A stretch of 64,000 nt of DNA from Chthoniobacteraceae bacterium (GCA_028293625.1 JAQGOL010000040.1:179694-243693); one strand, 5' to 3'. Counted from the first letter of the stretch, positions 2,788 to 39,792 are shown. Notes: generated by a model not told the origin, from the sequence alone. Program-made: numbers and translations.

Positions 2788-2894
2788 TGCACCAAGAATT
2801 CCCCAGAAGACAGAAGTGTTGGAGTCGGGTTTCAGGAGCCCCTTCCAGGCTGAAGCCCGCCTTCACGTACTCATGAGACTGATTAACTGATTGA

Positions 2895-16193: not shown

Positions 16194-16565
16194 TCAACGA
16201 CCTCCCTCTCCCGCCGGAGTAACCTGGATAGCGGTTATTGAGGCGCCATCCGATCCACGGCTCGACTGGTAGCGGGCAGGAGCCGGTGTTACCCATGCAA
16301 CCGCCAGATCCTGTAACGCCAGTGCCAGCTCAGCCAGGTTGTCTCCGTTCAGCATGACGTCATGGCTGAAAAACGAAATCAGCAGCGCCTCGCCCACATC
16401 GGTGCGCGAAAGGTGCGCCACGGCAAACTGCTGGTAAGGCAGAAGGAAGAACTCGCCGGATGGGAGCTCCACGCAAAGCGCGGCGCGGTTTCGTTCACGG
16501 CGCCAGCAGGCATTGCCGGCAGATTGTGTGGCATTGGAATCGCGGGAGGCGTGTTTGAGGCTCAT
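16194..16565 (-). CDS. Hypothetical protein downstream of relaxase
   Basis: 123-aa ORF overlapping the relaxase stop by 4 bp. Confidence 0.6.
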   Translation of the reverse strand: MSLKHASRDSNATQSAGNACWRRERNRAALCVELPSGEFFLLPYQQFAVAHLSRTDVGEALLISFFSHDVMLNGDNLAELALALQDLAVAWVTPAPARYQSSRGSDGASITAIQVTPAGEGGR

Positions 16566-19342
16566 GGTGTGATGCTTTGTTGATGGGCGTCGGCCCGGTG
16601 AAAGCCTTTGGCCAAAAGCCGGGAAACGATCCTGGCGAAAGCGCGTCCACGGCCGAGGCTTCGCAGATATTGCAAAGTCGGAATTGCCTGGCGGGTAAGA
16701 TTCATCTCAATCGCCAACGGCCGGTCACCGCTGCGCACGATGCTTTCCCTAAGTTGAGCCTTGTCCGGCGTAAAGATTCGCACGCTTTTACGGCCGCGCG
16801 ACACGCTCACATACCATTGCTGCGCGTTAGTAGCGGCGCGACTTCCCGCATCGGCCAGGAGCACATGATCCACGGTCTTTCCTTGCGAACCGTAAGACGT
16901 GACCGCGTAACCGCGGACAAATTGCCTGTAACTCGCCGGCAACCGGCGCCCGTCCTTCAGCTTGATTCCCCCGCCCTTCTCTACTTTGGCGACAGTCACG
17001 ATCTCGCCATTCGCGAACTTTGCTCCATCCGTGCCCGTGGCATTGGCTTTGAGCTGCAGGCTATCACCGCGGCTCAATAAGAGCGGACGTGGACGGCAGA
17101 TCGTCACCGCATCGAGCTGCTCAGGTTTGATTAACTGCACCTTGCCCGCGCTGGTCTCCACCACTGGACCCGCACCGGTCAGCATATAGAGTTTGCCGGT
17201 ATCCCCTTTCCCGCCATTCCCGAACCGACGATTGAATACAATGACGTGGTCTTCAGGATAAAACCGCTGATCGCACTTCTGAGAGCTGGTCAGATCAAGC
17301 CGCTTCAACGCGGTTACTTCCTTCTCGTCCTTTGACAGTAATCCCCGCTCACGCATGCCGGCGCGGATCTTGTCATTGAGCGGATTGATCGACGCCCAGG
17401 TTTGCGAAACCACCAGCACCGATTGCTTCTTCACGGCCATTTCCACATACGCATCGGCCAACTCCGATTCGGTCGACTCCGGTGCGCACTGCCGGATTGC
17501 GCCGTTCTTATCGAGTCGGTCGAATGACGTGGCAAGATCCCCGTCTGCGATCTCTTTGACCGCCTGCCGGTATTCGCGAATCCGCTCCTTTTCTTGCGCA
17601 TTCGCGGCGCTTTCCGGATCCTGGCGGCGGATCGTGTTCAACTCCGCGGGACGTAATCCCGAATAACGCTCGATGGCTCGCAACGCATCGGAGGGTTCTA
17701 CAGGGCCATGCTGACGGGTGTCGCCGGAAAGGATGACTCGGCCGTCATTCGCACCCGCCGCTTTCAATAGAGACATCATTTGCCCGGCCCCGATTTGGCC
17801 CGCTTCATCTACGATCAACACCGCGCCTTTCGGCAATGACCCGCTTTCAATAAACTGCGCCACGGTCGAAGCGTGCCGCAGCCCATCCTTTTGTAGATCG
17901 ATCACCTGCTGCCGTTGCGGCGCCAGAATCACCGAGACAAGACCGGCAGCCTCGATTGCTTCCTGCACTCGGCGCAGGACGTAGCTCTTACCCGTTCCGG
18001 CACCACCGCGGAAAAGCGTTACAAAATCGCGTGACGCGAGAATTCGATCCAAGGCCCGTTGTTGATCCTCGGCCAGCGAGGAATCCAGTGGCGGAAGTTC
18101 AGGCAACATTGGTTTACATGCACGGACCCCGGTTTTGGCGATCTGCAGGATTTCCCATTCACGAGCCATCACATCGCGCCGGGTGATCCGTCCCCGCTCA
18201 TCCCGGATATAAGGGCGGCGGGCTGTCTCCTGTTGAATGTCGGCAACCGAAAGCGAAGATCCGCGCGCAAACTCCAGTGCATACCGCCAGAGTTCATGTT
18301 CGGCAACAACCGAGCGCCGCTCGAACAAATGGTCTTCCGCCCACGAGACAGCATTCTCCGCCCTTGGGTGCTGCGGGGAGTCGGGAAACTGGGGATTACG
18401 AGGAATCGACAGAGACTCCCGCTCCACAGGCGTGAGTTGGCTATCCCACAATGCTCGAAGTCGATCTGACGAAACCGTGTTCGATTTCCAGGCTCGCGTC
18501 TTATAGGCCATACGCTCCCGGATCTCAGCGACGTTGCCACTCGATTTCTCCGGATGCGCCGCAAGCAACTCCCGGGTTTTTTCATCGATCTGCTGATGCC
18601 GTTTGGAAAACCGATCACATAGTTCCCGGCTGACTCCCCGGATTTGGAAGTCTCCGCGAGCTGAGTTTTCAATGTCATAACCGAATCGCCACAGTTCCCT
18701 GGCGAGCTCATGATAGTACACATTCTCGACGAACTTCTGCGCGGACAACATGTCGTAGTTGTGGAGCGCTTTCCATCGCGCCTCAACGGAATCATGCGTG
18801 GCATTGAAAACGACGCAGTGCGTGTGGAGATGCGGATCGAGCGCACGCGAAGTATCGTGATCAAAGAGTGCGGCAACGATGTTACCCGTGCGCCGGTCAT
18901 TGACGGCCCCGCCCATGCGAACCCGGGTGGCGGCGAACGCCTCAAGCTCATGCATCGCGATCTTGACTGCCACCCGATGTGCCTCAACAAGCCTTGCATC
19001 GCCCACAAAAAGCGCGGCAATGGACACCGACTTTGGTGGCGAAAATGTGAAATCGTAGAAGATCCGGCGATTAATACAGGATTCGTCGCCGGAATCAGCC
19101 TGGTCGCGGCTTCGTCTCATCCGCTGTGTGAGCCGTTGGCCCGTGGCAGGGTTCACGTTTTCGCATAGTGCCAGGAAATCCTCTTTACTCACTACACCAC
19201 GCAATCCGAGTGACTCCGCGCCGTGTCCAAGCCATTCTCCAGTGACGCGGTTGTCTTCTCCGTAATACTCACCAATCGCAATGTGCTCTTCGAAGTAAGC
19301 GCGCGCATTCTTCAGATTCGTCTGAGTCTTGGGCGATAACAT
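16562..19342 (-). CDS. MobF-family conjugative relaxase/helicase (TrwC/TraI-like)
   Basis: MLSPKTQTNLKNARAYFEEHIAIGEYYGEDNRVTGEWLGHGAESLGL, FDHDTSRALDPHLHTHCVVFNAT (three-His motif), RecD-like LFRGGAGTGKSYVLRRVQEA and YAVTSYGSQGKTVDHVLL. ORF track start 19405 is probably an over-extension. Confidence 0.92.
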   Translation of the reverse strand: MLSPKTQTNLKNARAYFEEHIAIGEYYGEDNRVTGEWLGHGAESLGLRGVVSKEDFLALCENVNPATGQRLTQRMRRSRDQADSGDESCINRRIFYDFTFSPPKSVSIAALFVGDARLVEAHRVAVKIAMHELEAFAATRVRMGGAVNDRRTGNIVAALFDHDTSRALDPHLHTHCVVFNATHDSVEARWKALHNYDMLSAQKFVENVYYHELARELWRFGYDIENSARGDFQIRGVSRELCDRFSKRHQQIDEKTRELLAAHPEKSSGNVAEIRERMAYKTRAWKSNTVSSDRLRALWDSQLTPVERESLSIPRNPQFPDSPQHPRAENAVSWAEDHLFERRSVVAEHELWRYALEFARGSSLSVADIQQETARRPYIRDERGRITRRDVMAREWEILQIAKTGVRACKPMLPELPPLDSSLAEDQQRALDRILASRDFVTLFRGGAGTGKSYVLRRVQEAIEAAGLVSVILAPQRQQVIDLQKDGLRHASTVAQFIESGSLPKGAVLIVDEAGQIGAGQMMSLLKAAGANDGRVILSGDTRQHGPVEPSDALRAIERYSGLRPAELNTIRRQDPESAANAQEKERIREYRQAVKEIADGDLATSFDRLDKNGAIRQCAPESTESELADAYVEMAVKKQSVLVVSQTWASINPLNDKIRAGMRERGLLSKDEKEVTALKRLDLTSSQKCDQRFYPEDHVIVFNRRFGNGGKGDTGKLYMLTGAGPVVETSAGKVQLIKPEQLDAVTICRPRPLLLSRGDSLQLKANATGTDGAKFANGEIVTVAKVEKGGGIKLKDGRRLPASYRQFVRGYAVTSYGSQGKTVDHVLLADAGSRAATNAQQWYVSVSRGRKSVRIFTPDKAQLRESIVRSGDRPLAIEMNLTRQAIPTLQYLRSLGRGRAFARIVSRLLAKGFHRADAHQQSITP

Positions 19343-19377
19343 TGACCGAGCTTCTACGCGAACTATTCGAAAATGTT

Positions 19378-19393
19378 GCTCCAAGGCTGGAGC
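19378..19393. promoter_or_regulatory. GCTCCAAGGCTGGAGC palindrome, 35 nt upstream of relaxase ATG
   Basis: Direct reading; one of six copies in window. Confidence 0.7.
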
Positions 19394-19576
19394 TACTTCG
19401 CCCATGGATCTCTGCGATGAATGAACTATGAAACGCAGAGTAGAGCGGCAACACCGCGGTGAGTTGAAAATAAGGAAGGGCCGGAAGCTACCGAGGAAAC
19501 ATTGTAATAGATTGGACGCCCTACCTCCATCTTCGATGGAAAACTTACTTCCGAATCAATCGCGGCGCCATGCGAC

Positions 19577-21163: not shown

Positions 21164-22579
21164 ATGTCAATCATCTTTGCCATCGTGGCCTTCGTGCTGA
21201 TCGCCGCCGGCACCGCGATCGTAATCAGACGCTCGCAAAAATCGAAACAGCCAGCGGTTGTCCAACTGGGCGGCTTATCGTGGACACGCGAAGACTTCTG
21301 CCGCGGTTGGCTGATCACCGGCGACACCGGCTCAGGCAAAACGCGCTCCGGCATCACGCCCCTACTCTATCAAGTCTTCAAAAACGAGCCTTGCTGGGGT
21401 GGCGTCTGCATCGACGACAAAGGTCTTTACTGGGAAACGCTTCGCGAAATGGCCCTTCACTTCGGCCGCGAACGCGATCTGATTTTGCTCCAGGTCCGGC
21501 CCGATAGTGCCCCCGCAGACTGGCAACCGGCGCACACATACAATCTCACGTCCGACCGCGGAATCCCGTACAACACGTTCGCTAAGGCAGTCATCGACAC
21601 CGCATCGAGTCTTGGCCAATCCGGCGACAAAGGATTCTTCAAAAACCAAGCCCAGGTTCACATCGCACGCGCCCTCGAACTGCTCCGTGAGATCCGCGCC
21701 GATGTTACACTCGAGAACGCCTATCATCTCCTCATCGACCCGAGCGATCTACAGGACGCACTCGACGACCTCGTCTACGCCAATCCCAGCCCCGCGCGCA
21801 ACGAGGTGATGGCTCATTTCCGGAACCGATTTCTCAACCAGCCGGCCGAGCAGATCGGCGGCGTAAAAGAAACCATCGCCAACTATCTCCAGGCATTCAT
21901 CACCCCTGACATCGTCCGAGTCTTTAGCCCGCGTACGAACACGTTCGACTTCCCCGATATCGACCGCGGCAAAATCATTTGCGTGGCCATGCCCCAGAAG
22001 TTCCAGATCGAGCGCCGATACGTGAACACGTTCCTGAAGATGCTCTTCTACACCCACACGCTACGCCGCTTCGACAAACCCGCAGAACAACGCCAACGCG
22101 ACAACCTGCTCATCCTGTGGGCCGACGAAGCCCAGCGTTTCGTCACCTCTTCCGAGGAAGGCATGAGCGACTACAACTGCGTCGACGTCATCCGCGAGGC
22201 CCGTGCCACCGTCGTCGCCGCCGCCCAGTCCACCACCTCGTTCATTCCGCCGCTCGGTAAAGAAAAAGCCCGCGTCTTCACCCTGAACCTCCGCAACCGC
22301 CTCATCTTCCGGGCAGCTGACGAGGAAGGCGCCGTCGACAGCGCCGATTTCCTCGGCAAAACCAAGATCATCAAGAAGTCGTGGGGATACACTGCCGGCA
22401 AACTCACCCGCAACTTCACCGAGCAGGAAGAACACAAGATCAAGCCCCACCTCCTCCGCGCCCTCCCCAAGCACACCTGCATCCTCGTCCACTGCGAACG
22501 GGGGCACCGCCGCCGCCTCCTACCCCCAATGGAGCCGGATGGACGCACTTCACCATGGTTTCGGCGGCGCTGGTGGTGA
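21164..22579 (+). CDS. Type IV coupling protein (VirD4/TraD-like)
   Basis: N-terminal TM; GWLITGDTGSGKTRSGITPLLYQVF (Walker A); LILWADEAQRFV (Walker B). Confidence 0.85.
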   Translation: MSIIFAIVAFVLIAAGTAIVIRRSQKSKQPAVVQLGGLSWTREDFCRGWLITGDTGSGKTRSGITPLLYQVFKNEPCWGGVCIDDKGLYWETLREMALHFGRERDLILLQVRPDSAPADWQPAHTYNLTSDRGIPYNTFAKAVIDTASSLGQSGDKGFFKNQAQVHIARALELLREIRADVTLENAYHLLIDPSDLQDALDDLVYANPSPARNEVMAHFRNRFLNQPAEQIGGVKETIANYLQAFITPDIVRVFSPRTNTFDFPDIDRGKIICVAMPQKFQIERRYVNTFLKMLFYTHTLRRFDKPAEQRQRDNLLILWADEAQRFVTSSEEGMSDYNCVDVIREARATVVAAAQSTTSFIPPLGKEKARVFTLNLRNRLIFRAADEEGAVDSADFLGKTKIIKKSWGYTAGKLTRNFTEQEEHKIKPHLLRALPKHTCILVHCERGHRRRLLPPMEPDGRTSPWFRRRWW

Positions 22580-22780
22580 ATCCCAAGACTCCATCTTCCG
22601 AACTCAAAGCCCGTGTATAGATTGCTATCGCAACATCCTAACCAGGTAGGCTCTGTAAGTCGTTAGAAAACTGGGGTGCTGCCGAACGACAAGAGACAAA
22701 TATATGCCACCAATGCGTATAGCAGCTTGGTTAAGAAAAGTTCTTCCAAAGCCGGCGAATTCTGCTCAATCATATCGCTC

Positions 22781-23245
22781 ATGCGTTTGCTTTTGTTCTT
22801 CGTGGTTGCCCTATCGGCGCTGGCAAGCGAGGCGTTGCCCGCGGGAGACCGCGCTCCAGCTGAAATCAAAATTCCAAATCCGAAGAAACTGTGGGACTAC
22901 TTCAAGGCTCTGGAGTCAACATCGAAGGAAACGGAGAAGGCCGTTTTCGGCAACAAGGTTTTATCCGAAGCCTACGATCTGGCTGATAGTGGAGCTATCA
23001 CGCAAGACACCTTCAAATTGCTGGAATCGCTGGCGCTCTGGCTGATTACGGATGGCTTCAACAAGAACCTGAAGACAATCGAAGGCGTTGCGGGTGTAAA
23101 AATTGATAAGGACAATCTGTTTGACAAGTATCGCGAGCAGAAGCTGGCTCCGTATATACCGAAAGAAGAGTGCATTCTCTTTTTCACAAACGGGGTTTCA
23201 TACGCCTGGAATGGCAAAGAATGGGTGAGGCACCCATCGAAATGA
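22781..23245 (+). CDS. Hypothetical secreted protein
   Basis: Start MRLLLFFVVALSALASEALPAGD looks like a signal peptide; ORF track start 22676 is upstream. Confidence 0.5.
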   Translation: MRLLLFFVVALSALASEALPAGDRAPAEIKIPNPKKLWDYFKALESTSKETEKAVFGNKVLSEAYDLADSGAITQDTFKLLESLALWLITDGFNKNLKTIEGVAGVKIDKDNLFDKYREQKLAPYIPKEECILFFTNGVSYAWNGKEWVRHPSK

Positions 23246-24037: not shown

Positions 24038-24676
24038 TCATCGGGTATCGCCCTTAGGAGAGAATTCGCTCGTTTGCCCCGGGTAAAGGCTTTTCACGCT
24101 CCCTTCAGGATTTCCGGGTGTCACTATGCGGCGTAGCCGCAGCGGGGCAGCGCCCGCATTTTCGTTGGCCCGGTTTACAAAGAAAGCCTCCACGTTGCAG
24201 GTCATGCCATCCGGCACTCCGGTGCACAAAACGGCCCACAGTTGCTTCGGAGGAGAGGCTTTGCCTTCGTATTCTTCCACCTCCAAGGCTTCTTCATCGG
24301 TTTTCGATGAAAAACCGATCAGGGAGATCTTCATTTCCTTCGGCAGTTGCGCCGGATCGACCAGCCACCGCCGTTGGTTCTCCTCATAATGGAGCGTGAG
24401 CTTCCGCCGCCCTGACGCATTATCGCCGAGGGTGACCTCTGGCGTCAGCGCACAGTGCAATGACGCCCCCTGTGCGGCTTCCGTCTTGATGCTGAAATGG
24501 AAGAGCTGGTATTGCAGATCAGGCTGAGCCGGCTCCGCCACCGGGGTCGGCGGCGTCGTGATCGAAAAAATGATGCCGAGGACGAGCACCGCCGCGAAAC
24601 CGCAGACGATGACGTCCAGGAATTCGCGCATGTTCGAGTGTCCGCTGTGATCGGAGTGACGTTTACTCATGGTCAC
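24038..24676 (-). CDS. ExbD/TolR-like stator subunit (second of two)
   Basis: Single N-terminal TM NMREFLDVIVCGFAAVLVLGIIFS with an Asp at TM entry (cf. ExbD/TolR LIDV); 4-bp overlap with upstream gene. Confidence 0.5.
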   Translation of the reverse strand: MTMSKRHSDHSGHSNMREFLDVIVCGFAAVLVLGIIFSITTPPTPVAEPAQPDLQYQLFHFSIKTEAAQGASLHCALTPEVTLGDNASGRRKLTLHYEENQRRWLVDPAQLPKEMKISLIGFSSKTDEEALEVEEYEGKASPPKQLWAVLCTGVPDGMTCNVEAFFVNRANENAGAAPLRLRRIVTPGNPEGSVKSLYPGQTSEFSPKGDTR

Positions 24677-25392
24677 TTAGGAGTGATCCCACGCACCGGT
24701 CGCTCGGGATCAGCCGGGTGAATTGTCGCGATCAGCACCCTCTCCTCGCGCGAGGGAGGGGTCGCCTCTCGCTGCTTTTGCGGGATGGCCGGCGTCTGTT
24801 CCTGGGCTTCGAGCAGAAAGACTCCGGCGGTCTCGTAGCGGTGATTGACCGGCGCCGGCGGATCATACGTCGCTTTAACCCGATGGAAGTCGCTATCTAT
24901 GCCGATCTCGAGCGTCAGCTCGACTTTTTCCGCCAGTTTGCTCGCACTGCCCGCAGCGCAGATCAACTCGAGTTTCTTCAGATTATCGGCAGGCGCGTGA
25001 GTGACAAAAACGCGCCGCCACCCGGTATCCTCACGACCTTCCGTCCAGTGATGCAAGCGCTGTTTTGCGTCCAAGCCATGCAGCTCAATGCGGCCCGGCT
25101 CGATGCCGGTACCTTTTCCGGCCTCCACCCAGATTTGGATCAAGAAATCATTGGAACCACTCACAGCCTTGGGCGGACGGCGCGCGTGCGCTTCCCTACG
25201 CGTGGCCGCGCGCTCCGCTTTCGCTCCGCCCGGGCTCTCCGGACTCCCGCTTTTGGGCAGCACGGAGTAGAGCATCATGAGCGCAGCGGCCGCCCCGAGC
25301 CCGCAGAGCAGCACCTCCAGCAAATCTTCCACGAGCGGATCGCGCTCTTCTTCCGCGCTGTGCGAGCGGCCTCGGAGACGGGTGATCTTCAT
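24673..25392 (-). CDS. ExbD/TolR-like stator subunit (first of two)
   Basis: Single N-terminal TM DPLVEDLLEVLLCGLGAAAALMMLYSV with acidic residues at TM entry; 4-bp overlaps with both neighbours. Confidence 0.5.
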   Translation of the reverse strand: MKITRLRGRSHSAEEERDPLVEDLLEVLLCGLGAAAALMMLYSVLPKSGSPESPGGAKAERAATRREAHARRPPKAVSGSNDFLIQIWVEAGKGTGIEPGRIELHGLDAKQRLHHWTEGREDTGWRRVFVTHAPADNLKKLELICAAGSASKLAEKVELTLEIGIDSDFHRVKATYDPPAPVNHRYETAGVFLLEAQEQTPAIPQKQREATPPSREERVLIATIHPADPERPVRGITPK

Positions 25393-27728
25393 CGTGGTCC
25401 CTCCATCTCGCCATTCCCTGAGCTACTGCCATTTTCGCGGTGGCCATTGAGAAGCGCGTCCGGGCCGTGGGAGCGCGGGCCGACTTCCGGCGCGTAAAAG
25501 GCGCGGTAAGCGCGCACGGTCCGCCGCCACACGTCCTCCGCCCACTTACGGTAGAAGCGGCGCCGCCGCCGCGGCTGGCTTTCCTCACACTTAGAAAGGA
25601 GCCGATGCTCTACCTCATCGATAAACGCCACCTCCCGATGCCCAAGGGCCGCATCGAGAAAAGCGAGCACTAGGCTAAGCGCAAACGCGGAGAGCGTGGC
25701 GGTGAAAGCCACACCTAAACTGCCGGAGACTTTCGAGATGGCTTCTGCCTGGGCAAAGGAGCCTTGCGCCCGCGCAATGTCTTCCGCGCTGGCCATCGAG
25801 GCCGCGATGCCCAGCACTTTTCCGATGAAGCCGACCGTGGGCAGCGCGCGCCCGCAGTAGGAGCCCAGCCAGCGCGAGCGAGCATTGGTCTCCCGGAAGG
25901 ATTCCGCGCGCACCACCAGCATATCCGGCGAAGGAGCCGGCGTGCCGTAGCTCCGCAAAAAAGCTCTCCGGGCCGTGTAGAGCAATTGGGCTGGAATAGA
26001 GAAGGCGTGCACCGAAGCCGCCTGGGCCGAGCGCCGCAGATTCCAGGAGAGCCACCACCACGCCAGCCTGCTCCACGCGAGCACCAAGAGCCGACCCGCA
26101 AGCAGTGCTATTACGAAAAAGAAGAGCCCGTACATAACGCACTGATCGATCCCATCCACGAAGGTCAGGTGGAAGCGCGCAGTGCGGACGTCGTCGTCCG
26201 CCTGGGCCATCTCGACAAACCGCACGAGGATTTGGTGGATGAAGACCCAGTTCTCAAACTCGAAGTCCGGCTCGCCGGCGGCAGCGGCCTTGGCCTCTGG
26301 TTTGGCCGTGTGTTGGCCGTTTTCCTCTTTCAGTGGGTGGGGTGCCTTTGCAGCCGCGTGCTCGATCCGCTCGAGCAACTGCCTCTGCACGCCGCCGATC
26401 GCCAATGCGGCGGAAACAATAACGGCCGGGCGCTCGCGGTATTCCGGCAGAGCGGCCTTTGACGCCAGGTCGCGGGCGAGTACCTCCGCTGCCTGGCTTT
26501 CCGTCTCGCGCTGCCCGCTCCCGCCTTCACTTAACTCGATGTGCTGGATGTAGGTAGCCAGCGTGGCAAAGGCGCCCAACTGGAAGAGGTTCTGCCCATC
26601 GGGCGGCTGGCGCTGCAGGCGAGCGCGAAAGTGCTCCGCCAACGCCGCCAGCTTTTCCTCCGTCGGCGGGGCTCCGGTGGCATCGCGCAGGTGCATACGG
26701 CCCAGGGCAACGATGAGCAGCGGCAACTCCTGCTGGGCCTGGAGACCGGCCGCGAGCTTGCAAATCGCATCCCTCCGCCGCCGCTTCGTCTCACTCTCCG
26801 CCTCTTCCGGCCACGCCGCCAGCCGCAGCCAGCGCGTGAGCGGCTCAGCAACCGGCGCCACCTTCGCCGGGGCCGGCGGTGGGCTCTTGGTCGTGAGCAA
26901 CGCGGCTGGGGCAAAGGGGCTCTCCGCCAGCAGCGTGGCAAAGGGTGAAGGCACCCCTTTCTGCGCCGCAGGCGCCGCCGCCCGCATCTCACCCGCGGTC
27001 TGGGGCTGTTCCGGCTCCCGCTCCAGCCAATCGAAGATCGGCTGGAGCGCTCTCGCCACGGTGCGGTGCTCCCAAACGCGAAACTCGGAAGCCCACGGAA
27101 CGCCGACATCCGGCACGTCGGTCTTCGTGGGTTTCGCCAGCCCGGCCAGCGCGGGCGGCGCGGGCGGCGCGGGCGCCAGAGAATCCACGATCCGCTCGGC
27201 TAGCCGTCCGCGCATGTAGGACCACACATCAAACGCCAGCACACCGCAGAGCACCACGCTGGCGAGAGTCCAGACCAAGGGCGGCGCGAACGATTTCTGC
27301 CGCGGCCGCGAGATGCCCACCAGCTCCAGCACGCCCGTCACCGTATGCAACACCAGCCCAACGATGAATTGTCCGAGCCAGAGCAGCCCGCCAAACAGGC
27401 GCTGCCAGAATGGCTTCATCCAGGTAAGCACCGCATCAAGTCCCCACAGGCCTCGTTTTGCACCGCTGAACAAGCGCGGCCGAGCGGCGTGCCAGGTCTT
27501 CCTCCGCCGTGTGTCCAGCCAGCGGAGGACAATAACCGATTTTTTCCACACCTGCTTGGCGGCGGGCGGCCCATACGTTTTGACCAAGCCCGCTGCCTTG
27601 ATCAGCGCGCTTCGCGCGGAGCGCACCAAGGGAAGCAGTTGTGTGATCGCGTGGCGGAACTGGGACTTGGGAGCAGCCGAGGATTCGTCTTCCGGCTCTG
27701 GCTGGGTGGGAGAATGAGGAATGTCCAT
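25389..27728 (-). CDS. TolQ/ExbB/MotA-like ion-channel subunit with long N-terminal extension
   Basis: C-terminal ALPTVGFIGKVLGIAASMASAEDIARA...ISKVSGSLGVAFTATLSAFALSLVLAFLDAALGHREVAFIDEVEHRLL resembles MotA_ExbB; additional TM segments in the N-terminal half. Confidence 0.7.
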   Translation of the reverse strand: MDIPHSPTQPEPEDESSAAPKSQFRHAITQLLPLVRSARSALIKAAGLVKTYGPPAAKQVWKKSVIVLRWLDTRRRKTWHAARPRLFSGAKRGLWGLDAVLTWMKPFWQRLFGGLLWLGQFIVGLVLHTVTGVLELVGISRPRQKSFAPPLVWTLASVVLCGVLAFDVWSYMRGRLAERIVDSLAPAPPAPPALAGLAKPTKTDVPDVGVPWASEFRVWEHRTVARALQPIFDWLEREPEQPQTAGEMRAAAPAAQKGVPSPFATLLAESPFAPAALLTTKSPPPAPAKVAPVAEPLTRWLRLAAWPEEAESETKRRRRDAICKLAAGLQAQQELPLLIVALGRMHLRDATGAPPTEEKLAALAEHFRARLQRQPPDGQNLFQLGAFATLATYIQHIELSEGGSGQRETESQAAEVLARDLASKAALPEYRERPAVIVSAALAIGGVQRQLLERIEHAAAKAPHPLKEENGQHTAKPEAKAAAAGEPDFEFENWVFIHQILVRFVEMAQADDDVRTARFHLTFVDGIDQCVMYGLFFFVIALLAGRLLVLAWSRLAWWWLSWNLRRSAQAASVHAFSIPAQLLYTARRAFLRSYGTPAPSPDMLVVRAESFRETNARSRWLGSYCGRALPTVGFIGKVLGIAASMASAEDIARAQGSFAQAEAISKVSGSLGVAFTATLSAFALSLVLAFLDAALGHREVAFIDEVEHRLLSKCEESQPRRRRRFYRKWAEDVWRRTVRAYRAFYAPEVGPRSHGPDALLNGHRENGSSSGNGEMEGPR

Positions 27729-27803
27729 GGTAAGCGTTGTCTGAGCACGCTGGCGGGGCCAGAACGGCGATTCGCCGGCCGCTGCGGAGAAATGTTTGTG
27801 GCC

Positions 27804-30800
27804 TTAATTGCTGCCGTAGACGATCCAGCGCGGGGTGGCGCGGAAATGCTGGAGCCAAACCTCGGGCTGGGCGAAAAGATCGAGAATCAACGCGCTACGC
27901 CCCGCGCGTTTCCCTAGCGGAAAGCGATCCGGGTCCACGACCACACCCTTTTTCAGCCAATCTTCATAGCGCCCTTGCATCGGACCGCCATCCAACGAGA
28001 CGCCGTTGCCCCAGATCCGCATGGGCAGGTGCGCCGCTTCGCGCAGAATGGCCAGGTGAGACTCCTCGATCCCGTGTCTTTTCACGGCTTGAAGGAAGCT
28101 CTGCACGGCCGCAAACGGAGCGGAGGCCGCGCTCTGGGCGAGCCTGGCCTGCAATTGCTCCGCCACGGCTTCTCTTCGCAGAGGCTGATCCCCGGGAAAG
28201 AAGACCTCCGCCCAGACCAGACGCCGTGACGCGGCTTCCGGCCGGATCTCGAGCCCAATGGACCAATGGTGGTGATCGACCCTGGCGGTCGGCGCTTCGG
28301 CCCCCAAGATCGGCGCTTCGGCCTCCGCGGTGATGAGGTCCCCCAGCCGCAGGCGCTGCTGAAAGGTGTTTGAGTGGATGACCGCATACTGCTGCCCGAC
28401 TGCATCCAGCATAGGGTGGTAATCGTAGCTCGCGGTCGCGCTGTCCCGGCTGAACGGCTGCTCCAACCAGGCGAACTGCAACCGATTGTTCACTCTCTGC
28501 AGAATAAACATCTCGTCCTTCTCGAAACTGTACCCGGGGTAGTCCGATCTCCCCCGCACGTTGGTCGCAGCCCCATTCGGGAGGCCATCTTTCGCGCCGG
28601 AAGCACCCAAAATCCCGCTGAGGCGCCTCTTTTTCTCGGCCAGCTCGCTGGATCGCTGCATCTGCGGCGTTGCCCAGATATCCTTAAGGATTTGCCGAAA
28701 TTTTGCGAGTTGCGGGTCCCTCTGCGGCACGTCGTGCCAGACGTATTTCCACTGGCGCGTTTCCGCATTATACGGCGAGATGACGTTTTCCGGGTCCGAA
28801 GCCGCCACCGGACAGTGTTCGCAGAGATGGGTTTTCATTGTGGCCGCGAGAGGTGGAAGCGTGGCCTCGCAACCTATCGCCAGGCTCCATTTGTCAGGGG
28901 CGATCTCCGGCGGCGCACTCACGCGGGCCAGCAGTTCCTCACCCAGCGCTTGGTAGGCGCTGGAAAGATCGAGCCCGCCATCCGCGGTCTCAGAGGCAAA
29001 GGTCGGATGCACCGCCGGCGAAGGACGCGCAAAGAGCCGCACCTTCCATGGCTTCTCGTCTTCCCCCTCGATGATCGCAAGCCGCGCCGGCCGAGGCGCG
29101 TCGAGAATCAGTTCGTCATCGCGCTGCAGGCTGCCCTCCGCAGCCTCCTCCTGTAGGATCTTCACGATCGGCTGCCACTCCTCCACCTCACATTCGTGCA
29201 CGCTTGGCAAGGCTTTCGGGCAGACCAGCCGGTGGGTGCCCAGACGGCCATCCGCCTTGCGCTCGATCACGGCGATGCTCTCTTTTGTGTACAGATAAAA
29301 GGCGGCATCCGTCTCCCCCAGGTACTTTGGCCCACCCGCTCTTGTCTTCTGCACCAGCCGGGCGAATTGTCCGGTCAAAGAGGCGAAAGTTTTCTCCTGG
29401 CACTCCCCCTCCGTGGTGGGCAGGAGGCGGTGTTGCAGAAGCGGATCGTTTTTGGCAAAGCTATGCTTCACTAACTGGCCGTCTTTTTTCAGGCGCGTGA
29501 AATAAGTGCGCCAGCCGCCGGCCTTGATGATCACCGTCGCATGCGCGCTTTCATCCGCCGTTCCTTCGGGCGCGTCGCTGGGATCGTAGACCTCATTGGC
29601 CGGATGAGTGCAGTGCCACACCTCCAGCGCCTCAGAATCTTTGGCCGCAGCCTCGGAACTTGAGCCGGCAGCCACCGCCTGGCGGATCGCCATCAATGCA
29701 GCTGCCGGCATGGAACCGCTCGACCCTTCCTCCGGCACGACGATCGCCAGCAAAGCCTCCACCATGTCATGGGTCAATTTTGAGGGCGCCTTCTCCGGCG
29801 CCGGCAGGAGTTTGCCAGCCTTCGCCGGGATCAGCGTGCGCGGCGGATTTTTGTCTGCGTCGGCTTCTTCTTTTTTGAAATACAGCGGGCAGGCGTAGGC
29901 CACGTCACCCTGAATTGCCACGCGCCAGACGCGCTGGCCTCCCCTCGCCCAGCTCCAGTGCGCGGCCTGCTTACCGTCGATGCTCTCCACCAGCCAACTC
30001 TTGGTCTCATTCAAAATCGACGGCAACTTATCTTTGACTCCCTGTGCATAAAAAACTGGCGTGCCCCCTTCGCTCAGTCCGGCTTCGGTGACTTCATTGC
30101 CTGGAGGCTTCTGGTCGAGCTTTTTCTCGCCCCCCTTCTTCTCGTCACTTGTTTTCTCCGGCGGCATTTTCGGAACCCCTATTTTCTCGTCGGCCTTTTG
30201 TTCTTTCCCGTTGCCCTGGTCGTTTGGGGGACCGTGCGTTTCGCCAGGCTCTTGCCCGCTGCCGCCGGATTGAGCCTTCGTATCATCGCCTCTCTTTCCA
30301 GAGTCCCCCTCTTTACCGCCGTGTCCTGCGCCGATGGAGATTTTTCCTTTCAAGAGTTGGGCCAGGTCTTCCAGGCGGAAATCGAACAGTCCGGCAATGA
30401 GGTCGAGCAGCAGACCCGGGGTTAGCTCTTCCACACTTGGGACACTCACGGAGAGTGGAATGAAGAGCACCGAAAACTTCGCCTGGGCGCGACTTTGGTT
30501 CACCGAAACCTCTGCGGATCCGATCTTCGGGCAGAATTTGACCGCCACACGACCTTTCGCATTGAACCGCAATGGCCCTCGACCGATTTGCGCACCGATA
30601 TCGAAGAAATCCGCCTGTCCGATCAGGAGATCCACATTTCCGGCGGCCTTAACCGCCACCGCCCCATCTCCGAAGTGAATCTTCAGGTTCGTATCGGCAA
30701 TGTGCATCCGGAAGAGATCGAGCGGCATCCTCGACTCGAAAATGCCCTGCTTAAAATCCAACTTGGATTCGCGCTCCGGTTTGAAAATGTACGCCAGCAC

Positions 30801-33800
30801 TCCGAGCGCTTTGTCCCGGGAGTACAAAGTGGCCGCTCCCATATCAAGTACGGCCTTCGACTCAAAGAGGTCGAGCGAATCCAACACCCTCATCACGCCG
30901 ATGAGGGGAATCTTCCCTTGCTCGATCGAGCGCAAATCAAACGAGAGCGTTGAGACGACTTTCAGCAACCGAGTCAGCTCCGGTGCGACAAAGGTCAAAT
31001 CGCCATGCACCTGAAAGCGTCCAGCTTCTCGCGGATAGAAGGTCCCGCCGACTTTATGCAGGCAGCAAATCCCCTCGCTGGCGGTGCGCACCATCTGGTC
31101 CAGCGCCGCTGCCAGCAACTGTGATCCGACCTCCAGCTGCTCTGGCAACTCTACCCCGTTTTGACCGATGGTCAACGTCAGGCCGATGTGAAAGAATTGG
31201 CTGACATCAAACGCAATAGTGGCATGCACGCGCGGCGGATCGAGCTGGAACGGGGGGTTGGCCAACTCGATGGAGAGCGCGCCGGGAATATTGATCTTAA
31301 AGGCGGCCCGCGCCCACGCCTCCACCTTTCCGAGGAACAGTTGCGCGATCGCGTCGCGGTCGAACCGAAGATCCGGGTAGACCTGGACCGGGAACTCGTA
31401 GCTCTCCTTCATGAACTCCATCGTGGCAATGACGCCGATCCGCACATCCGGCGTGAGCCGGGTCTTTTCGCTCGATGAATCCAACCGCACACTCTTTACG
31501 GGACCGATCCCTGAGATGCTCAAGTCCTGCTTTTGCAGCTGCGCCAGCAGCGCCGCCTCCAGGGTGGCGCGGAGCGTGCCCGTAAAATCCGCTGTCACGC
31601 CGGAAGGGGCCAGCGCGATCTCCTTCGTAACAATTTCCATGTCGATGGCTTTCAGCTCCAAGTGGACACGAAATGCCAGACCGCCCTGGTACCAATGGAG
31701 ATCGGTAAGGCGAAGTCCGCCAAACCCGTCACCTTCGGGCAACTGCAGGATGTTCCGCACCGCTGCCTTGAAATTCTCCTCATCGGCAGGCGTGCGAAAG
31801 CTGGCGCCGCGGAAGTCGAAACGCGGCGCTTTCGTCCACTGGCGCGTGGCCGGATCGTACCCATCGAGCAGGAGCAGATTTTGAATGGTAAAGGGGTACG
31901 TGGGGCCGCCCAGTTCACAGCTGCTCTGAATGCGATAAGCGCCCGACGCCGGAACGTATTCCACCGGCGTCACTTTCATTTTCAGCAGATTGCCAAGGAG
32001 ATTGAATTCAATCGCGCCCAGCTCCGCGATCCGCTCGGCGATTGCACCGTGCGCCTGCTCCGCGAGCACGCGGGTGATCTCCTGGCGCGCCCCATTCAGC
32101 CATCCCTGCCAGTCACCGAGCGAGATTTCCCAGGGGTGATCCGCATTGAGCGGGCGAAAAAGCACTTTGACCACGGGCGACTGCTCCAGTTGCACTTGCA
32201 GCCGGCCGAAGGAGACTTGCGCCGTCGCTCCCAGGGCCGGCCCGTCCTTTTCCTCGGGGCCTGTGAAATCAATCGAGAGATAATCATCGATCTCCCCAGG
32301 CCAGGTTGGCAGGGCTTTCCGCAGATGTGCCAGAAGCGTCTCGCGAAAGTACTTCCGCATGGCCTCAGTCGCGCGGAACCCAGAAACGCACACCCTGGGT
32401 GTATCCGATCCGTGAATCGAAAGCGCAAACTCGCACTCGGCCAGGGGCAGTCCATCCTTTTCCAGCCGTATCGTGCGGGGCCAGGCGGGTGACCCGTTCG
32501 AAACCGGAAGCGCCGCCACTTCGATCCCGAGCACACGCTTCGCTGCGATCACGCGGAAGGCGCGGTTCCAGACCGCCGTCAGCGCCTCCTTCTCCGCTTG
32601 GCGCAGTTTCTCGAGCAGTTGCGTCTGGACCGAGATGCTGCCGTCGTAGATATTCAAGGTCAGCGTGGTTGGCGGCAACGGAACGGGCTCCAAGCCGAAC
32701 ATCTCCAGATTCGGCTCCACCCCCTGCAGCGTAAAAGTGAGCACGCCAGTATTGGAATCAATGATGGCGTCTGCCTCCTTGGCAAGCCACGCAGGGAAGC
32801 CAAGCGTTACAAAGGCCTTGCGCACGGCGGCATGGTCCACGCGCACGCTCCACCCCTCTGGCGCCACAAAGCGCCCTCGGTCCAGGATCATGCGGTTCAG
32901 CGTGACGCCGAGGAAGATTTCCTCATCGGGCTTGATTGAGTCCGGCGTAGCCGAGTGAGGAGATCCGTCCGAAGCGGGGGCGACGGTGCCAGGCCGTTTT
33001 TTTACTGCGAGCGACATCACGACGTCTGCCTTCCGCACGAGAAAGAATTTTACCTGCACCCGCAGATCTTCCGTAGGCTCGGATTGCGGCTCGATGTGAG
33101 CCCGGAGCCAGACCTGCTCGCGGGCCGCGACGGGAAAATCGATTACCCGCGAGCGCTCCAGTGCCTCGCGTCCCGCTACAGCAACTTCACGACCCTTTTT
33201 GATCGCCGCGAGCGCGGCGGCATGCGCCGAGCGAAATTTTTCGATACGGGCTTCGGCAGCCTCGGTGAACTGCACGAGCTGCTTTTCGAGTTCGAGCGCC
33301 TTTCCCATGGCGTCCTGCGGATTCAGCGCACCTTTCCGCAAGACCGCGGTCTCGCCCTCCATGACAATCGTCGAAAAGGCTTTCTGAAACTGCCCCACCA
33401 ATGGCTCCAGCTCGGCGCGAGAGAAAAACTGCTCCAGCTGCGGCTGCTCCGTGAACGCCTGCAGCAGGCCGAGCCGCTCATCGAGCAATTTGCGCCGCTT
33501 CTCGGCGCGCTCGAGTGCTAGCTGCAACTCGCCCGGCGCCGTCAGTTCATCAAGCAATTTGCGCCACTTCTCGGCGCGCTCAAGCGCTTGCTCCGGCGCC
33601 TTGAGTTGAGCGAGAGCGTCTCTACCTGCGCTGATCTTCTCGATCACGGCACGCAATTCATCGGCAAAGAAGTAGCGAGCCGGGACCAATCGCGCCTTCA
33701 GAGCAAGGAGGCTGGGCGGAACGGCCAGTTCAGCCTTCGTCGCCCGCGATTGTTCCCGGGCATTCTTAAAAATATCCGCATTGGCCTGGTAGCCCTGGGC

Positions 33801-34262
33801 GAAGAGCTGTTGGAGGAGCTCGCTCACCACGTTTTCTGTCGCCGCGCCCTCTGTCTTTGACGCCTCCTGGCGGAGGTGCTGGCCCAAGTCGACGAAGAAA
33901 GCGTTCATCAGTGCCTGCGGTTGCTTGTCGAGGAATCCCTTGTCCATCAGCAGTAAATGCTGCGCATCCTTGAGCCACTCGCCACGCTGCTCTTGCGCCA
34001 ACGTCTCAGCGCGGATGGCGAGGGCTTGCTCTGCAGATTCCGGAGGGCGCGGCTTGGTCGTCTCTTCATTTGCCGCCGGGCTGACCAGGAAACTCTCTTC
34101 AACCGCGGCGAGCGCCGTCATGACCTTTTCCACAGGAGCCAGCTCCTCTCCGGCCGCGACGAAAGCGCCTCCGCCACTCGCGAGGAGAATGGCGGAAGCG
34201 GCTAAGAGACGCAACCAACGCTGGAAGCGTGCAAAAGAGGAAGAAGGCAAGGGACTTAGCAT
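27804..34262 (-). CDS. Giant (2152 aa) secreted/envelope protein, first gene of stator-like operon
   Basis: Uninterrupted ORF; N-terminal signal-like RFQRWLRLLAASAILLASGGGAFVAAGEE; long beta-rich-looking middle; Gly/Lys/Glu-rich linker GHGGKEGDSGKRGDDTKAQSGGSGQEPGETHGPPNDQGNGKEQ; distinct C-terminal part. Confidence 0.75.
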   Translation of the reverse strand: MLSPLPSSSFARFQRWLRLLAASAILLASGGGAFVAAGEELAPVEKVMTALAAVEESFLVSPAANEETTKPRPPESAEQALAIRAETLAQEQRGEWLKDAQHLLLMDKGFLDKQPQALMNAFFVDLGQHLRQEASKTEGAATENVVSELLQQLFAQGYQANADIFKNAREQSRATKAELAVPPSLLALKARLVPARYFFADELRAVIEKISAGRDALAQLKAPEQALERAEKWRKLLDELTAPGELQLALERAEKRRKLLDERLGLLQAFTEQPQLEQFFSRAELEPLVGQFQKAFSTIVMEGETAVLRKGALNPQDAMGKALELEKQLVQFTEAAEARIEKFRSAHAAALAAIKKGREVAVAGREALERSRVIDFPVAAREQVWLRAHIEPQSEPTEDLRVQVKFFLVRKADVVMSLAVKKRPGTVAPASDGSPHSATPDSIKPDEEIFLGVTLNRMILDRGRFVAPEGWSVRVDHAAVRKAFVTLGFPAWLAKEADAIIDSNTGVLTFTLQGVEPNLEMFGLEPVPLPPTTLTLNIYDGSISVQTQLLEKLRQAEKEALTAVWNRAFRVIAAKRVLGIEVAALPVSNGSPAWPRTIRLEKDGLPLAECEFALSIHGSDTPRVCVSGFRATEAMRKYFRETLLAHLRKALPTWPGEIDDYLSIDFTGPEEKDGPALGATAQVSFGRLQVQLEQSPVVKVLFRPLNADHPWEISLGDWQGWLNGARQEITRVLAEQAHGAIAERIAELGAIEFNLLGNLLKMKVTPVEYVPASGAYRIQSSCELGGPTYPFTIQNLLLLDGYDPATRQWTKAPRFDFRGASFRTPADEENFKAAVRNILQLPEGDGFGGLRLTDLHWYQGGLAFRVHLELKAIDMEIVTKEIALAPSGVTADFTGTLRATLEAALLAQLQKQDLSISGIGPVKSVRLDSSSEKTRLTPDVRIGVIATMEFMKESYEFPVQVYPDLRFDRDAIAQLFLGKVEAWARAAFKINIPGALSIELANPPFQLDPPRVHATIAFDVSQFFHIGLTLTIGQNGVELPEQLEVGSQLLAAALDQMVRTASEGICCLHKVGGTFYPREAGRFQVHGDLTFVAPELTRLLKVVSTLSFDLRSIEQGKIPLIGVMRVLDSLDLFESKAVLDMGAATLYSRDKALGVLAYIFKPERESKLDFKQGIFESRMPLDLFRMHIADTNLKIHFGDGAVAVKAAGNVDLLIGQADFFDIGAQIGRGPLRFNAKGRVAVKFCPKIGSAEVSVNQSRAQAKFSVLFIPLSVSVPSVEELTPGLLLDLIAGLFDFRLEDLAQLLKGKISIGAGHGGKEGDSGKRGDDTKAQSGGSGQEPGETHGPPNDQGNGKEQKADEKIGVPKMPPEKTSDEKKGGEKKLDQKPPGNEVTEAGLSEGGTPVFYAQGVKDKLPSILNETKSWLVESIDGKQAAHWSWARGGQRVWRVAIQGDVAYACPLYFKKEEADADKNPPRTLIPAKAGKLLPAPEKAPSKLTHDMVEALLAIVVPEEGSSGSMPAAALMAIRQAVAAGSSSEAAAKDSEALEVWHCTHPANEVYDPSDAPEGTADESAHATVIIKAGGWRTYFTRLKKDGQLVKHSFAKNDPLLQHRLLPTTEGECQEKTFASLTGQFARLVQKTRAGGPKYLGETDAAFYLYTKESIAVIERKADGRLGTHRLVCPKALPSVHECEVEEWQPIVKILQEEAAEGSLQRDDELILDAPRPARLAIIEGEDEKPWKVRLFARPSPAVHPTFASETADGGLDLSSAYQALGEELLARVSAPPEIAPDKWSLAIGCEATLPPLAATMKTHLCEHCPVAASDPENVISPYNAETRQWKYVWHDVPQRDPQLAKFRQILKDIWATPQMQRSSELAEKKRRLSGILGASGAKDGLPNGAATNVRGRSDYPGYSFEKDEMFILQRVNNRLQFAWLEQPFSRDSATASYDYHPMLDAVGQQYAVIHSNTFQQRLRLGDLITAEAEAPILGAEAPTARVDHHHWSIGLEIRPEAASRRLVWAEVFFPGDQPLRREAVAEQLQARLAQSAASAPFAAVQSFLQAVKRHGIEESHLAILREAAHLPMRIWGNGVSLDGGPMQGRYEDWLKKGVVVDPDRFPLGKRAGRSALILDLFAQPEVWLQHFRATPRWIVYGSN

Positions 34263-34321
34263 ATAGGGATGGCAGCTTGGGCGCGGAGATTAGCAACTTC
34301 GCGATTTAATGCCATCCCTAT
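34263..34321. repeat. Perfect 12-bp inverted repeat (ATAGGGATGGCA / TGCCATCCCTAT) abutting start codon of giant gene
   Basis: Arms 34263-34274 and 34310-34321, 35-bp spacer; ATG begins at 34262 on minus strand. Confidence 0.8.
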
Positions 34322-34408
34322 CATTTAGAGTGCAGCCTTCCTCCGGCCAAAACCGTCGTGCATCCTTAAGGCTCGTATCCGCAATATATACGCAAGCTAG
34401 TGCTTTTA

Positions 34409-35270
34409 GAGGGTGTTATTAACTTTGGCCTGCCAGGATGGAGAAGATTTGGGAAAGCATTACGGAGGCGAAAGCAGCGAAGTGAAGTCCGACAAGGATT
34501 TCGGGCAAGCGCTCATAGTCTCTCACATGCCGGCGAAAGAGTGTCAGCCAGCCAAAAGAACGCTCAACTACCCAGCGCCGAGGCAGTAGAATAAAGCCTT
34601 GGTTCCCTCGGGGCGCTTGACTACTTCCAAACGGATTCCGTGCTCAGCGGTTTGCGCTGCAGCTTCCTCACCGCTATAGCCCTGGTCAGCAAACATCACC
34701 TCGACGTTCTCGCCTGTAGCTTCCTGCACTTTTTTGGCCAGCTCTCCAACTTGTGCACGGTCTTGTTCGTTTGCAGGGGTCACATGGGCGGCAAGAAGAT
34801 TGCCCAAAACGTCCACGACCATGTGCAGCTTGCTGCCCTTCTTTTTCTTATTTGCGTTATAGCCGCCGCGATCTCCGTTTTCAATGCTGCCGTGCAACGT
34901 GCGGCTATCAATGATCCCGGCAGTCGGGTTGGCGTTTCTACCATCCAGCAACCGCAAAAGCACTCGCAGGTCATGGACCACATCCTCGAAAACGCCCGCT
35001 TTAAGCCAGCGCTGCGTCTGCTGGTAAACAACGTAGTAAGGAGGAAAATTGGTAGGCATCATCCGCCAGGGAGCACCGGCGCGAACTATCCAGCGCATCG
35101 CGTTGAAGACTTCGCGCAAGGGATGTTCTCGCTGTGGAGCGTCCTCTTTCATCAGGGTCAGATACGGCACTACAAATGCCCATTCGTCGTCACTCACATC
35201 GCTTGGGTATTGCTTCCGTTCGGTCATGCCAAATTGACACTTCTTGAAGAAAAAAGTGCATAACACCCTC
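34409..35270 (-). mobile_element. IS5-family (IS1031-like) insertion sequence, 862 bp, TTA target duplication
   Basis: Ends GAGGGTGTTAT... and ...ATAACACCCTC; flanked by TTA (34406-34408 and 35271-35273). Confidence 0.85.
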
Positions 35271-35308
35271 TTAGAAGTCTGACCGACGGTGGCCGTCGTG
35301 CTTGACAA
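34568..35308 (-). pseudogene. IS5-family transposase, frameshifted near C-terminus
   Basis: YPSDVSDDEWAFVVPYL...GIIDSRTLHGS...GGYNANKKKKGSKLHMVVDVLGNLLAAHVT...FADQGYSGEE; the C-terminus [48 protein letters not shown] continues in another frame (down to about 34420). ORF start extends past the IS end; likely start is MTERKQYPSDV. Confidence 0.8.
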
Positions 35309-35325: not shown

Positions 35326-35931
35326 TTGCATATGACTATGCAAAGCTACTCCCTCCTCGCTCGCGTGTTTCTGCTTTTAGCCCTCGCCGCTACCTCTGCA
35401 TGGGCCGTCGAGATCGACGATGCCAAAGTGGAAAAATGGATCGGAGCGGGCTACACCAAAGCTGGAGAGGCTGTAGGAGACGCCAAAACCAAAATCGCCA
35501 AGCTCTACACCGTGGAGGAACTTAAGCAGGGCTGGACTCGGCTGAAGCACTGCCGTGATTTAGGCAATGCCGATCTCCATCTCGCTGCGGCGGAGCATTA
35601 TGTCTTTGCGCGCCTGATCGCCGCCAGCCAGGGTGATACGGCCTATCGAAAGCTGCCCAAATGGTATGAGACGGCTAAGTCCTTCGCGAATAAACTCGAC
35701 CTCGAAAAATATATTCAGTCATCTGATCAACCCGTTTCACCCGTGAATGCCAAGGTGACGAAGTGGGGCGAAAATGGGATCGAGCGAGGACTGGCTGATT
35801 ATAAGCAACTCACCGGGCAGGATCCGAAAGCGGGCTCCGCTGCCGTGGAGACACTAATCGCCAGCAGCTACGGCCTCTACTACTATCCACATAGAAAAGC
35901 CACCGGCGTGTGCGATGTGCAGGCGCCCTAA
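35326..35931 (+). CDS. Hypothetical secreted protein
   Basis: Signal peptide-like LLARVFLLLALAATSAWAVE; 201 aa. Confidence 0.55.
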   Translation: MHMTMQSYSLLARVFLLLALAATSAWAVEIDDAKVEKWIGAGYTKAGEAVGDAKTKIAKLYTVEELKQGWTRLKHCRDLGNADLHLAAAEHYVFARLIAASQGDTAYRKLPKWYETAKSFANKLDLEKYIQSSDQPVSPVNAKVTKWGENGIERGLADYKQLTGQDPKAGSAAVETLIASSYGLYYYPHRKATGVCDVQAP

Positions 35932-38181: not shown

Positions 38182-39102
38182 CTACACGATCATGAGCCCT
38201 CCGTCATTCACCGTCAGAGCTCCCCTTCCCACGAAAGATCCCGCCAGCAGCGCCTCCGTGCAGGCATCGCCGACGTGCTTCTGGATGGCATCGCGGAGGG
38301 GGCGGGCGCCGAGGCGCGGGTGGAATCCTTCGCGGAGGAGGAACGGGAGAACGGTGGCGTCGAAGGTGAGGTCGAGGCCGCGGGTGCGGAGGCGGGCAAG
38401 TTCCTGGTCGAGGAGCATGGCGGCCACATGGAGCTGGACGTCGAAGGTGAGCCGGTTGAAGACCAGTTTTTCGGTGATGCGGGCGTAGAACTCGGGGCGG
38501 AGTGACTGGAAGGCGCGAGTCAGGACGTGACGCTCCATCGTGGCGAAGGTGGAATGCTGGAGGTTTAGGATTTCGGCGGAGCCGAGATTTGAGGTAAGGA
38601 CGATGTAGAAACCGCCTAGGTCGAGCGTTTCGCCGGAAGCCATGGTGACCCGGGCGGCGTCCAGGATCTGGAGCAGGATGTCGAGGACGCGAGGATGCGC
38701 TTTTTCGATTTCGTCGAAGAGAAGGGTACCGACTTTGAACTTTTCCAAAGGCTTGGCGAGGAGGCCGGTTTCACCCAGACGGCCGCCGAGCAGCACTCCA
38801 AGGCTTGCCTGGGTCTGGTATTCGGACATGTCGAATCGGAAAAGGTGCTCGTCCCCGAATAGGAAACGGGTGAACTCGATGGCTAGTTCCGTTTTTCCGA
38901 CACCGGTAGGGCCGAGGAAGAGGAAGCTGCCTCGGGGACGCTTGGAGGGGGTAAGTCCAAGTTCGCCACGGTATAGGACGGATGCAACGCGTGGGATCAC
39001 ATGATCCTGGCCGAGGACGCGGCACGTGAGATACGGTTTGAGGTCCTTTAGTTGCTCTGCGCGATCGGACGAGATCAGTTCTGCCTTCATGCGTGCGAGC
39101 AT
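38182..39102 (-). CDS. Single-ring ClpA/ClpB-like AAA+ ATPase
   Basis: SFLFLGPTGVGKTELAIEFTRFLFGDEHLFRFDMSEYQ, TLLFDEIEKAHPRVLDILLQILD, FYARITEKLVFNRL, GFHPRLGARPLRDAIQKHV. Confidence 0.85.
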   Translation of the reverse strand: MLARMKAELISSDRAEQLKDLKPYLTCRVLGQDHVIPRVASVLYRGELGLTPSKRPRGSFLFLGPTGVGKTELAIEFTRFLFGDEHLFRFDMSEYQTQASLGVLLGGRLGETGLLAKPLEKFKVGTLLFDEIEKAHPRVLDILLQILDAARVTMASGETLDLGGFYIVLTSNLGSAEILNLQHSTFATMERHVLTRAFQSLRPEFYARITEKLVFNRLTFDVQLHVAAMLLDQELARLRTRGLDLTFDATVLPFLLREGFHPRLGARPLRDAIQKHVGDACTEALLAGSFVGRGALTVNDGGLMIV

Positions 39103-39466: not shown

Positions 39467-39792
39467 ACGAATTGCGTTTGACGGAAACCAATAGCGCCGA
39501 CGATTCCGATGGGAAAACATGGGGCTTCGAGGGCAACCTCTTCTGGCATCTGATCGGCGGGATCTTTGCGGCGGTGATCGTGTTGCTGCTGCTCTTCAGC
39601 GTGGCGCAGTGGACAATCACGGCTTCGGCGAGCGTGGCGGCGATTCCACTTTCACTCTCGCTGACTTACATCTTCGGGTTCAGACAGGGTAAACCGGCCG
39701 GTTACGACCGGGACATTCTGGAATTGTGGATCAGCGGGCCGGGATTCGGTCCGGATGCACGGCAGCCACTGGAGGAAAGATGTTATGTTTGA
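39463..39792 (+). CDS. virB3: VirB3/TrbD-like protein
   Basis: 109 aa, two TM segments, between VirB2- and VirB4-like genes. Confidence 0.6.
   Translation: MNELRLTETNSADDSDGKTWGFEGNLFWHLIGGIFAAVIVLLLLFSVAQWTITASASVAAIPLSLSLTYIFGFRQGKPAGYDRDILELWISGPGFGPDARQPLEERCYV

Follow-up and report, generated by a model that had tools for sequence, protein, structure and literature searches.

The window analysed here, a 64,000-nt stretch of DNA from a Chthoniobacteraceae bacterium, carries a four-gene operon that, judged from sequence comparison and a predicted structure, on balance probably encodes an envelope stator driven by the proton-motive force or another ion gradient and working with a giant secreted protein, as cargo of a conjugative element rather than as part of its transfer machinery. 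The candidate stator comprises one TolQ/ExbB-like channel subunit and two single-transmembrane (TM) partners, and its positions are collected in Table 1 with those of the surrounding element.

Table 1. Coordinates of the operon, its internal features and its neighbours in the window
Feature	Position	Strand	Remark
TrwC/MobF-type relaxase	16562-19405	minus	element backbone
Type IV coupling protein	21164-22579	plus	element backbone; left edge of cargo interval
Partner 2 gene, 212 aa	24038-24676	minus	ORF intact
Partner 1 gene, 239 aa	24673-25392	minus	ORF intact
TolQ/ExbB-like channel subunit gene, 779 aa	25389-27728	minus	ORF intact
TolQ core, residues 605-715 of the 779-aa protein	25584-25916	minus	TM2 PTVGFIGKVLGI, TM3 SLGVAFTATLSA; PF01618, alignments, AF2 model, Foldseek
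Lys637 (codon AAA)	25818-25820	minus	TM2 of the 779-aa protein
N-terminal extension, residues 1-530 of the 779-aa protein	26139-27728	minus	
Giant-protein gene, 2152 aa	27804-34262	minus	ORF intact
12-bp perfect inverted repeat (ATAGGGATGGCA ... TGCCATCCCTAT)	34263-34321		immediately precedes the start codon of the giant gene
Insertion-sequence-like element	34408-35271		terminal inverted repeats (19 bp, imperfect); a short way upstream of the operon
Transposase-like ORF of this element	34568-35308		
AAA (ClpX/ClpB-like) gene	38182-39102	minus	right edge of cargo interval
VirB4/TraC-type T4SS ATPase	39755-42487	plus	element backbone

The four minus-strand ORFs that an earlier, sequence-only reading had proposed, of 2152, 779, 239 and 212 aa, are all present and intact, and their codon composition is of the coding type, with GC lowest at second positions (0.44-0.52) and highest at third positions (0.69-0.78). 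Between the giant gene and the 779-aa gene lie 75 bp, and the last three genes overlap by 4 bp as proposed; the sequence of the overlap had been given as ATGA throughout, which holds for the 779-aa/239-aa pair (25389-25392), whereas the 239-aa/212-aa overlap (24673-24676) reads GTGA. An alternative ATG for the 212-aa ORF lies two codons downstream of the GTG, and with it the overlap would be lost. The inverted repeat that precedes the giant gene occurs once in the window and is a possible leader hairpin; further upstream lies the element that we take to be an insertion sequence with a transposase-like ORF. GC content in 2-kb intervals is 0.58-0.66 across the operon versus 0.48-0.59 for most of its surroundings. 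On either side of the operon lies a short plus-strand ORF whose N-terminus is hydrophobic (22676-23245 and 35326-35931); neither has a Pfam or PADLOC match.

By predicted fold and by motif, the C-terminus of the 779-aa protein is a genuine TolQ/ExbB/MotA channel domain and a member of that superfamily, as had been suggested from its pair of helices, and the Pfam match, the alignment of relatives and the structural model agree on this. MotA_ExbB (PF01618) matches residues 623-697 with 20.2 bits (E 5.2e-4), slightly below the Pfam cut-off of 22.9 bits for this family. Searches of 147 relatives and 388 genomes of the phylum returned only generic TolQ-like proteins, with core matches reaching E 1.5e-9 over residues ~582-720, and an alignment of 46 relatives revealed both the G-x-x-G-x-V motif of TM2 and the TM3 threonine in the 779-aa core. 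The AlphaFold (AF2) model of residues 490-779, built on a 47-row alignment that included these 46 relatives, reached a pLDDT of 76.1 and a pTM of 0.67, and its best 45 PDB matches in Foldseek were all TolQ, ExbB or ZorA, 43 of them with a probability of at least 0.97 and the remaining two with 0.93 and 0.92; the corresponding E-values were 0.0031 or weaker (none below 0.001), with TM-scores by target of ~0.36-0.52. A PDB profile search by sequence gave TolQ, ExbB and MotA as its first six matches at E-values from 0.018 to 4.5, so that sequence matching to solved structures is insufficient alone. Just ~88 residues follow TM3. The N-terminal extension has a basic N-terminus and hydrophobic segments at residues 121-139 and 151-169, and its ~360-residue domain is predicted by the positive-inside rule to be periplasmic.

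Scanning genome contigs with the TolQ-core alignment yielded at least 80 loci in several phyla, with members (L057-L140) from Verrucomicrobiota, Proteobacteria, Planctomycetota and Bacteroidota. At the loci with the closest cores (L057-L060), the TolQ-like gene adjoins two proteins with an N-terminal SFLDxxCCGFGx, and in many of the loci one TolQ-like protein is accompanied by two different partners bearing the motif FLDxxxCGFGA. Clustering of the loci listed placed a TolQ-like family in 79, the FLDxxxCGFGA family in 74, an FGE/PEGA-like family in 67 and an Hsp70-like family in 44, the latter two names being our reading of the sequences. Lipoprotein genes are also frequent in these operons. 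A targeted, non-exhaustive literature search found no name for this combination of TolQ with paired FLDxxxCGFGA partners, and we refer to it as the unnamed family.

The two short window proteins were expected to carry a single TM with an acidic residue near its start, and this architecture is borne out: partner 1 has the TM LLEVLLCGLGAAAALMMLYSVL with Glu26 and a ~180-residue domain, and partner 2 the TM FLDVIVCGFAAVLVLGIIF with Asp21 and a ~165-residue domain. A TM profile of 128 partner segments, drawn exclusively from other genomes, was run against the 526 six-frame window ORFs of at least 60 aa; the top-ranking ORF was the 212-aa one (E 5.6e-7, 27.9 bits), followed by the 239-aa one (E 0.032, 12.1 bits), and 2000 shuffles of each reached at most 7.8 and 9.0 bits, respectively. 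HHalign agreed for the TM segment (E 3.9e-7 and 7.4e-4, respectively), to which the agreement is limited, the soluble domains being unalignable. Neither protein has any match in Pfam, a vWA domain included. On these profile comparisons, the assignment as a partner is clearly weaker for the 239-aa than for the 212-aa protein.

Secretion of the giant protein is predicted from a Sec-type hydrophobic N-terminal signal (residues ~19-37, without a lipobox Cys), in line with the earlier description. Residues 470-1120 are predicted, with low confidence, to alternate between helices and short strand runs, and residues ~1321-1390 form a low-complexity linker. The protein has no match in Pfam, NCBIfam or PADLOC; no credible relative emerged from the two overlapping sets of 147 relatives and 388 genomes of the phylum, nor from 180 genomes of the family in which the closest TolQ cores occur. 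Peptide-pattern scans of genome and viral contigs confirmed no relative of the giant, nor did the viral contigs yield a confirmed relative of the 779-aa protein. Several candidate readings of the giant were discarded. A 413-aa ORF at locus L025 reads as an unrelated enzyme and was rejected as a chance match, and the 2208-aa protein encoded on a related Opitutaceae plasmid proved unrelated to the giant. A few pairs of 200-aa segments score above shuffles (best 64 vs 53), but internal repeats are not claimed. A single-sequence AlphaFold model of residues 470-1120 had a pLDDT of 40, and its Foldseek hits, with query TM-scores below 0.1, were disregarded; an AsmA/TULIP-like lipid-transfer reading of the helix/strand pattern was unsupported by any match.

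A second genome contains both a relative of the giant and a comparable stator set. When 294 Planctomycetota genomes were searched with the giant, one match, in genome G759 (placed in this phylum through loci L091 and L119 of its family), was a secreted ORF at locus L162 of at least 3425 aa, a lower bound imposed by the contig edge at which the ORF ends. Residues 1066-1276 of the window giant align with residues 3217-3423 of this protein (~210 of 2152 residues). Taken alone, an E-value of 1.2e-4 from a search of ~1000 genomes is weak; the Smith-Waterman score is 115, where 1000 shuffles reached 73 at most (Z 14.5). G759 was discovered through the giant alone, and its stator set was located afterwards with the 779-aa query, on another contig (L167). 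There, a 674-aa TolQ-like ORF with a core starting at residue 584 (624 in the window) is followed, in the same gene order as in the window, by two ORFs of ~150 and 172 aa that both bear FLDVLSNGMGA and lack a Pfam domain, vWA included. Among 137 TolQ-like ORFs from other genomes, only this one has its core beyond residue 300. The two sets thus share a long N-terminal TolQ extension, two short partners, gene order and a giant secreted relative within the same genome. They differ in that the G759 subunit keeps the TM2 threonine where the window has Lys637, that the G759 giant is larger and on a contig separate from the stator, and that the extensions and partner soluble domains are unalignable by sequence. 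The gene immediately upstream of the G759 TolQ-like gene is FGE-like and is not the giant. The expectation that the four genes recur together elsewhere therefore holds for the one-plus-two stator set and the giant, both present in G759; four-gene adjacency, given the separate contigs, is observed in the window only. The G759 giant carries a ~110-aa repeat in three copies, without a match to the window giant, and a ~1709-aa ORF without a Pfam match lies divergent from its gene (L162:109-5235, minus strand).

The window belongs to contig C11 of a 6.8-Mb genome that, to judge from its relatives, is probably of the Verrucomicrobiota, and it carries other T4SS genes besides VirB4. As the sequence-only reading stated, the operon sits between mobilisation and T4SS genes, with the coupling protein on one side and VirB4 on the other. 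Relatives of this VirB4 occur in 38 of the 147 relatives, with up to 68% identity, and the operon was found in the window only. Seven related elements all keep the AAA gene and VirB4 and contain nothing operon-like; the coupling protein falls within the stretch read in two of them (L157 and L158) and beyond it in the other five, and in those two the interval from coupling protein to AAA gene carries a pAgo-like gene (L157) or AbiEi (L158). Because the T4SS backbone occurs without the operon in relatives, the operon is not conjugation machinery; it is optional accessory cargo of the conjugative element. The ClpX/ClpB-like AAA gene, found beside VirB4 in the seven related elements, is an unusual neighbour for a T4SS.

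Near the relaxase, the PADLOC models DpdA, TmtA, NsnC, NsnB and NsnA find matches in a row at 664-12509, likely a defence cluster. A 384-aa protein at 56163-57317 matches IIGP (interferon-inducible GTPase, 4.8e-36) and, weakly, LeoA/LeoBC models. On account of the neighbourhood of the operon, defence or other envelope protection would be the likeliest use of the motor. A Zorya-like anti-phage system, in which envelope perturbation would be sensed by the motor, with the giant as sensor or effector, would specify that role and is compatible with the stator reading. The pAgo-like gene and AbiEi in the cargo interval, the PADLOC cluster 11-23 kb away and ZorA among the Foldseek matches of the channel model all speak for it; however, PADLOC matches none of the four operon proteins, a ZorC/ZorD-like gene, an OmpA-type domain and a long ZorA-type tail are lacking, and the G759 set adjoins an FGE-like gene rather than a recognised defence gene, so that we consider this specification somewhat unlikely.

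The ion path itself deserves separate consideration. Position 637 in TM2 is Lys in the window and Thr in all 46 aligned relatives, and position 627 is Arg where the same 46 have Trp. The PDB TolQ alignment places residue 637 at T145 of E. coli TolQ, which together with T178 makes a polar ring with TolR D23 (PMC12583513). In the window protein this TolQ/ExbB ring is half present, the TM3 threonine being kept as T678 and the TM2 threonine replaced by Lys637. As the T145A substitution in E. coli TolQ is not tolerated under deoxycholate (PMC12583513) and the threonine is nearly invariant, ion conduction may be altered or lost; the half-kept ring says more about function than about whether the protein belongs to the fold. 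A degenerate, non-conducting relative, which keeps the TolQ fold while Lys637 and Arg627 break the ion path and the proteins act as a scaffold, would account for these substitutions. Against it stand the four intact ORFs, three of them with overlapping ends, the retention of both partner acidic residues and of T678, and the Lys codon, which could be an error as it comes from a single assembly; we regard it as distinctly unlikely.

The proposed link to conjugation, as stator-powered envelope remodelling, surface exclusion or mating-pair stabilisation, drew on the secreted giant and on the position of the operon between coupling protein and VirB4, but it is not supported by the comparison with the 38 relatives and seven elements that have the backbone without the operon, and, with no T4SS genes near either G759 locus on their short contigs, it is now quite improbable. 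A motor for surface motility or adhesion, comparable to AglRQS or GldLM and moving the giant along the envelope, would have the same one-plus-two composition, AglR being MotA-like and AglQ and AglS MotB-like (PMC9120999), but Pfam found no adhesin domain in the giant and this reading, too, has little probability.

We therefore return to the ion-driven stator that works with the giant. By analogy with known stators, the 779-aa subunits would form an inner-membrane ring, possibly a pentamer, enclosing a heterodimer of the 239-aa and 212-aa partners, with Glu26 and Asp21 in the membrane. The passage of protons or other ions would turn or tilt the partner pair and so move its periplasmic domains, which may be surrounded by the extended N-termini of the ring subunits, and the moved domains could contact the giant to act on, export, anchor or reposition it. 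As the distantly related G759 has the same set, the operon appears to represent a type of envelope machine that has yet to be described; tentatively, and with less than even confidence, it may be described as a hetero-partnered TolQ-type stator, driven by the proton-motive force, that powers a giant secreted protein in both Verrucomicrobiota and Planctomycetota, is carried as cargo, possibly serves defence and, in the window, has a Lys in its path. More broadly, the data point to a widespread stator family with one TolQ-like ring subunit and two different FLDxxxCGFGA partners, a divergent branch of which may drive a giant exported protein. The operon offers a testable case of stators put to new uses, of whether two-partner stators are heterodimers, and of an ion path working or failing with Lys where Thr is thought necessary.

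Among known systems, TolQ-TolR and ExbB-ExbD share with the window the channel fold, the TM3 threonine and a single-TM partner with one acidic residue. They have one partner type where the window has two, lack an N-terminal extension of its kind, and, in TolQ, have T145 where the window has Lys; among the Pfam-scanned window genes there is no TolA/TonB-type transducer. ZorA-ZorB likewise combine a TolQ/MotA-like core and a single-TM acidic partner with a mobile, defence-rich setting. However, no operon protein has a Pfam match to the OmpA-like peptidoglycan-binding domain of ZorB, ZorA has a long C-terminal cytoplasmic tail whereas the window subunit ends shortly after TM3 and is extended at its N-terminus, and no ZorC, ZorD or ZorE gene stands beside the operon among the scanned window genes. 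The earlier statement that ZorC/D and TonB are missing thus stands for these genes, and, as none of the three defining features tested was found, we do not file the operon as Zorya. Of the likeness to AglR-AglQ-AglS of Myxococcus, the composition stands, one MotA/TolQ-like and two MotB/TolR-like proteins, and is the one shared feature observed; no other gliding component was seen. Generic ion transporters include TolQ-like A subunits with added N-terminal domains of unknown function (PMC12505986) and resemble the window in this extra domain, although the window extension matches no named domain.

Nearer than AglRQS or Zorya, both of which the operon had been said to recall, is the unnamed family from several phyla. 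It shares with the window the TolQ core (29-46% identity in the best local matches), the partner TM motif and, in many loci, the combination of one TolQ-like protein with two different partners. Its TolQ-like subunit is short (207-332 aa), whereas that of the window has 779 aa with a ~530-residue extension; its partners are mostly ~320-380 aa, with vWA where Pfam was run, as against 239 and 212 aa without vWA; and FGE/PEGA- and Hsp70-like neighbours are frequent at its loci, where no giant secreted relative was seen. By these sequence criteria, the window operon is a divergent branch of this FLDxxxCGFGA stator family, its nearest group.
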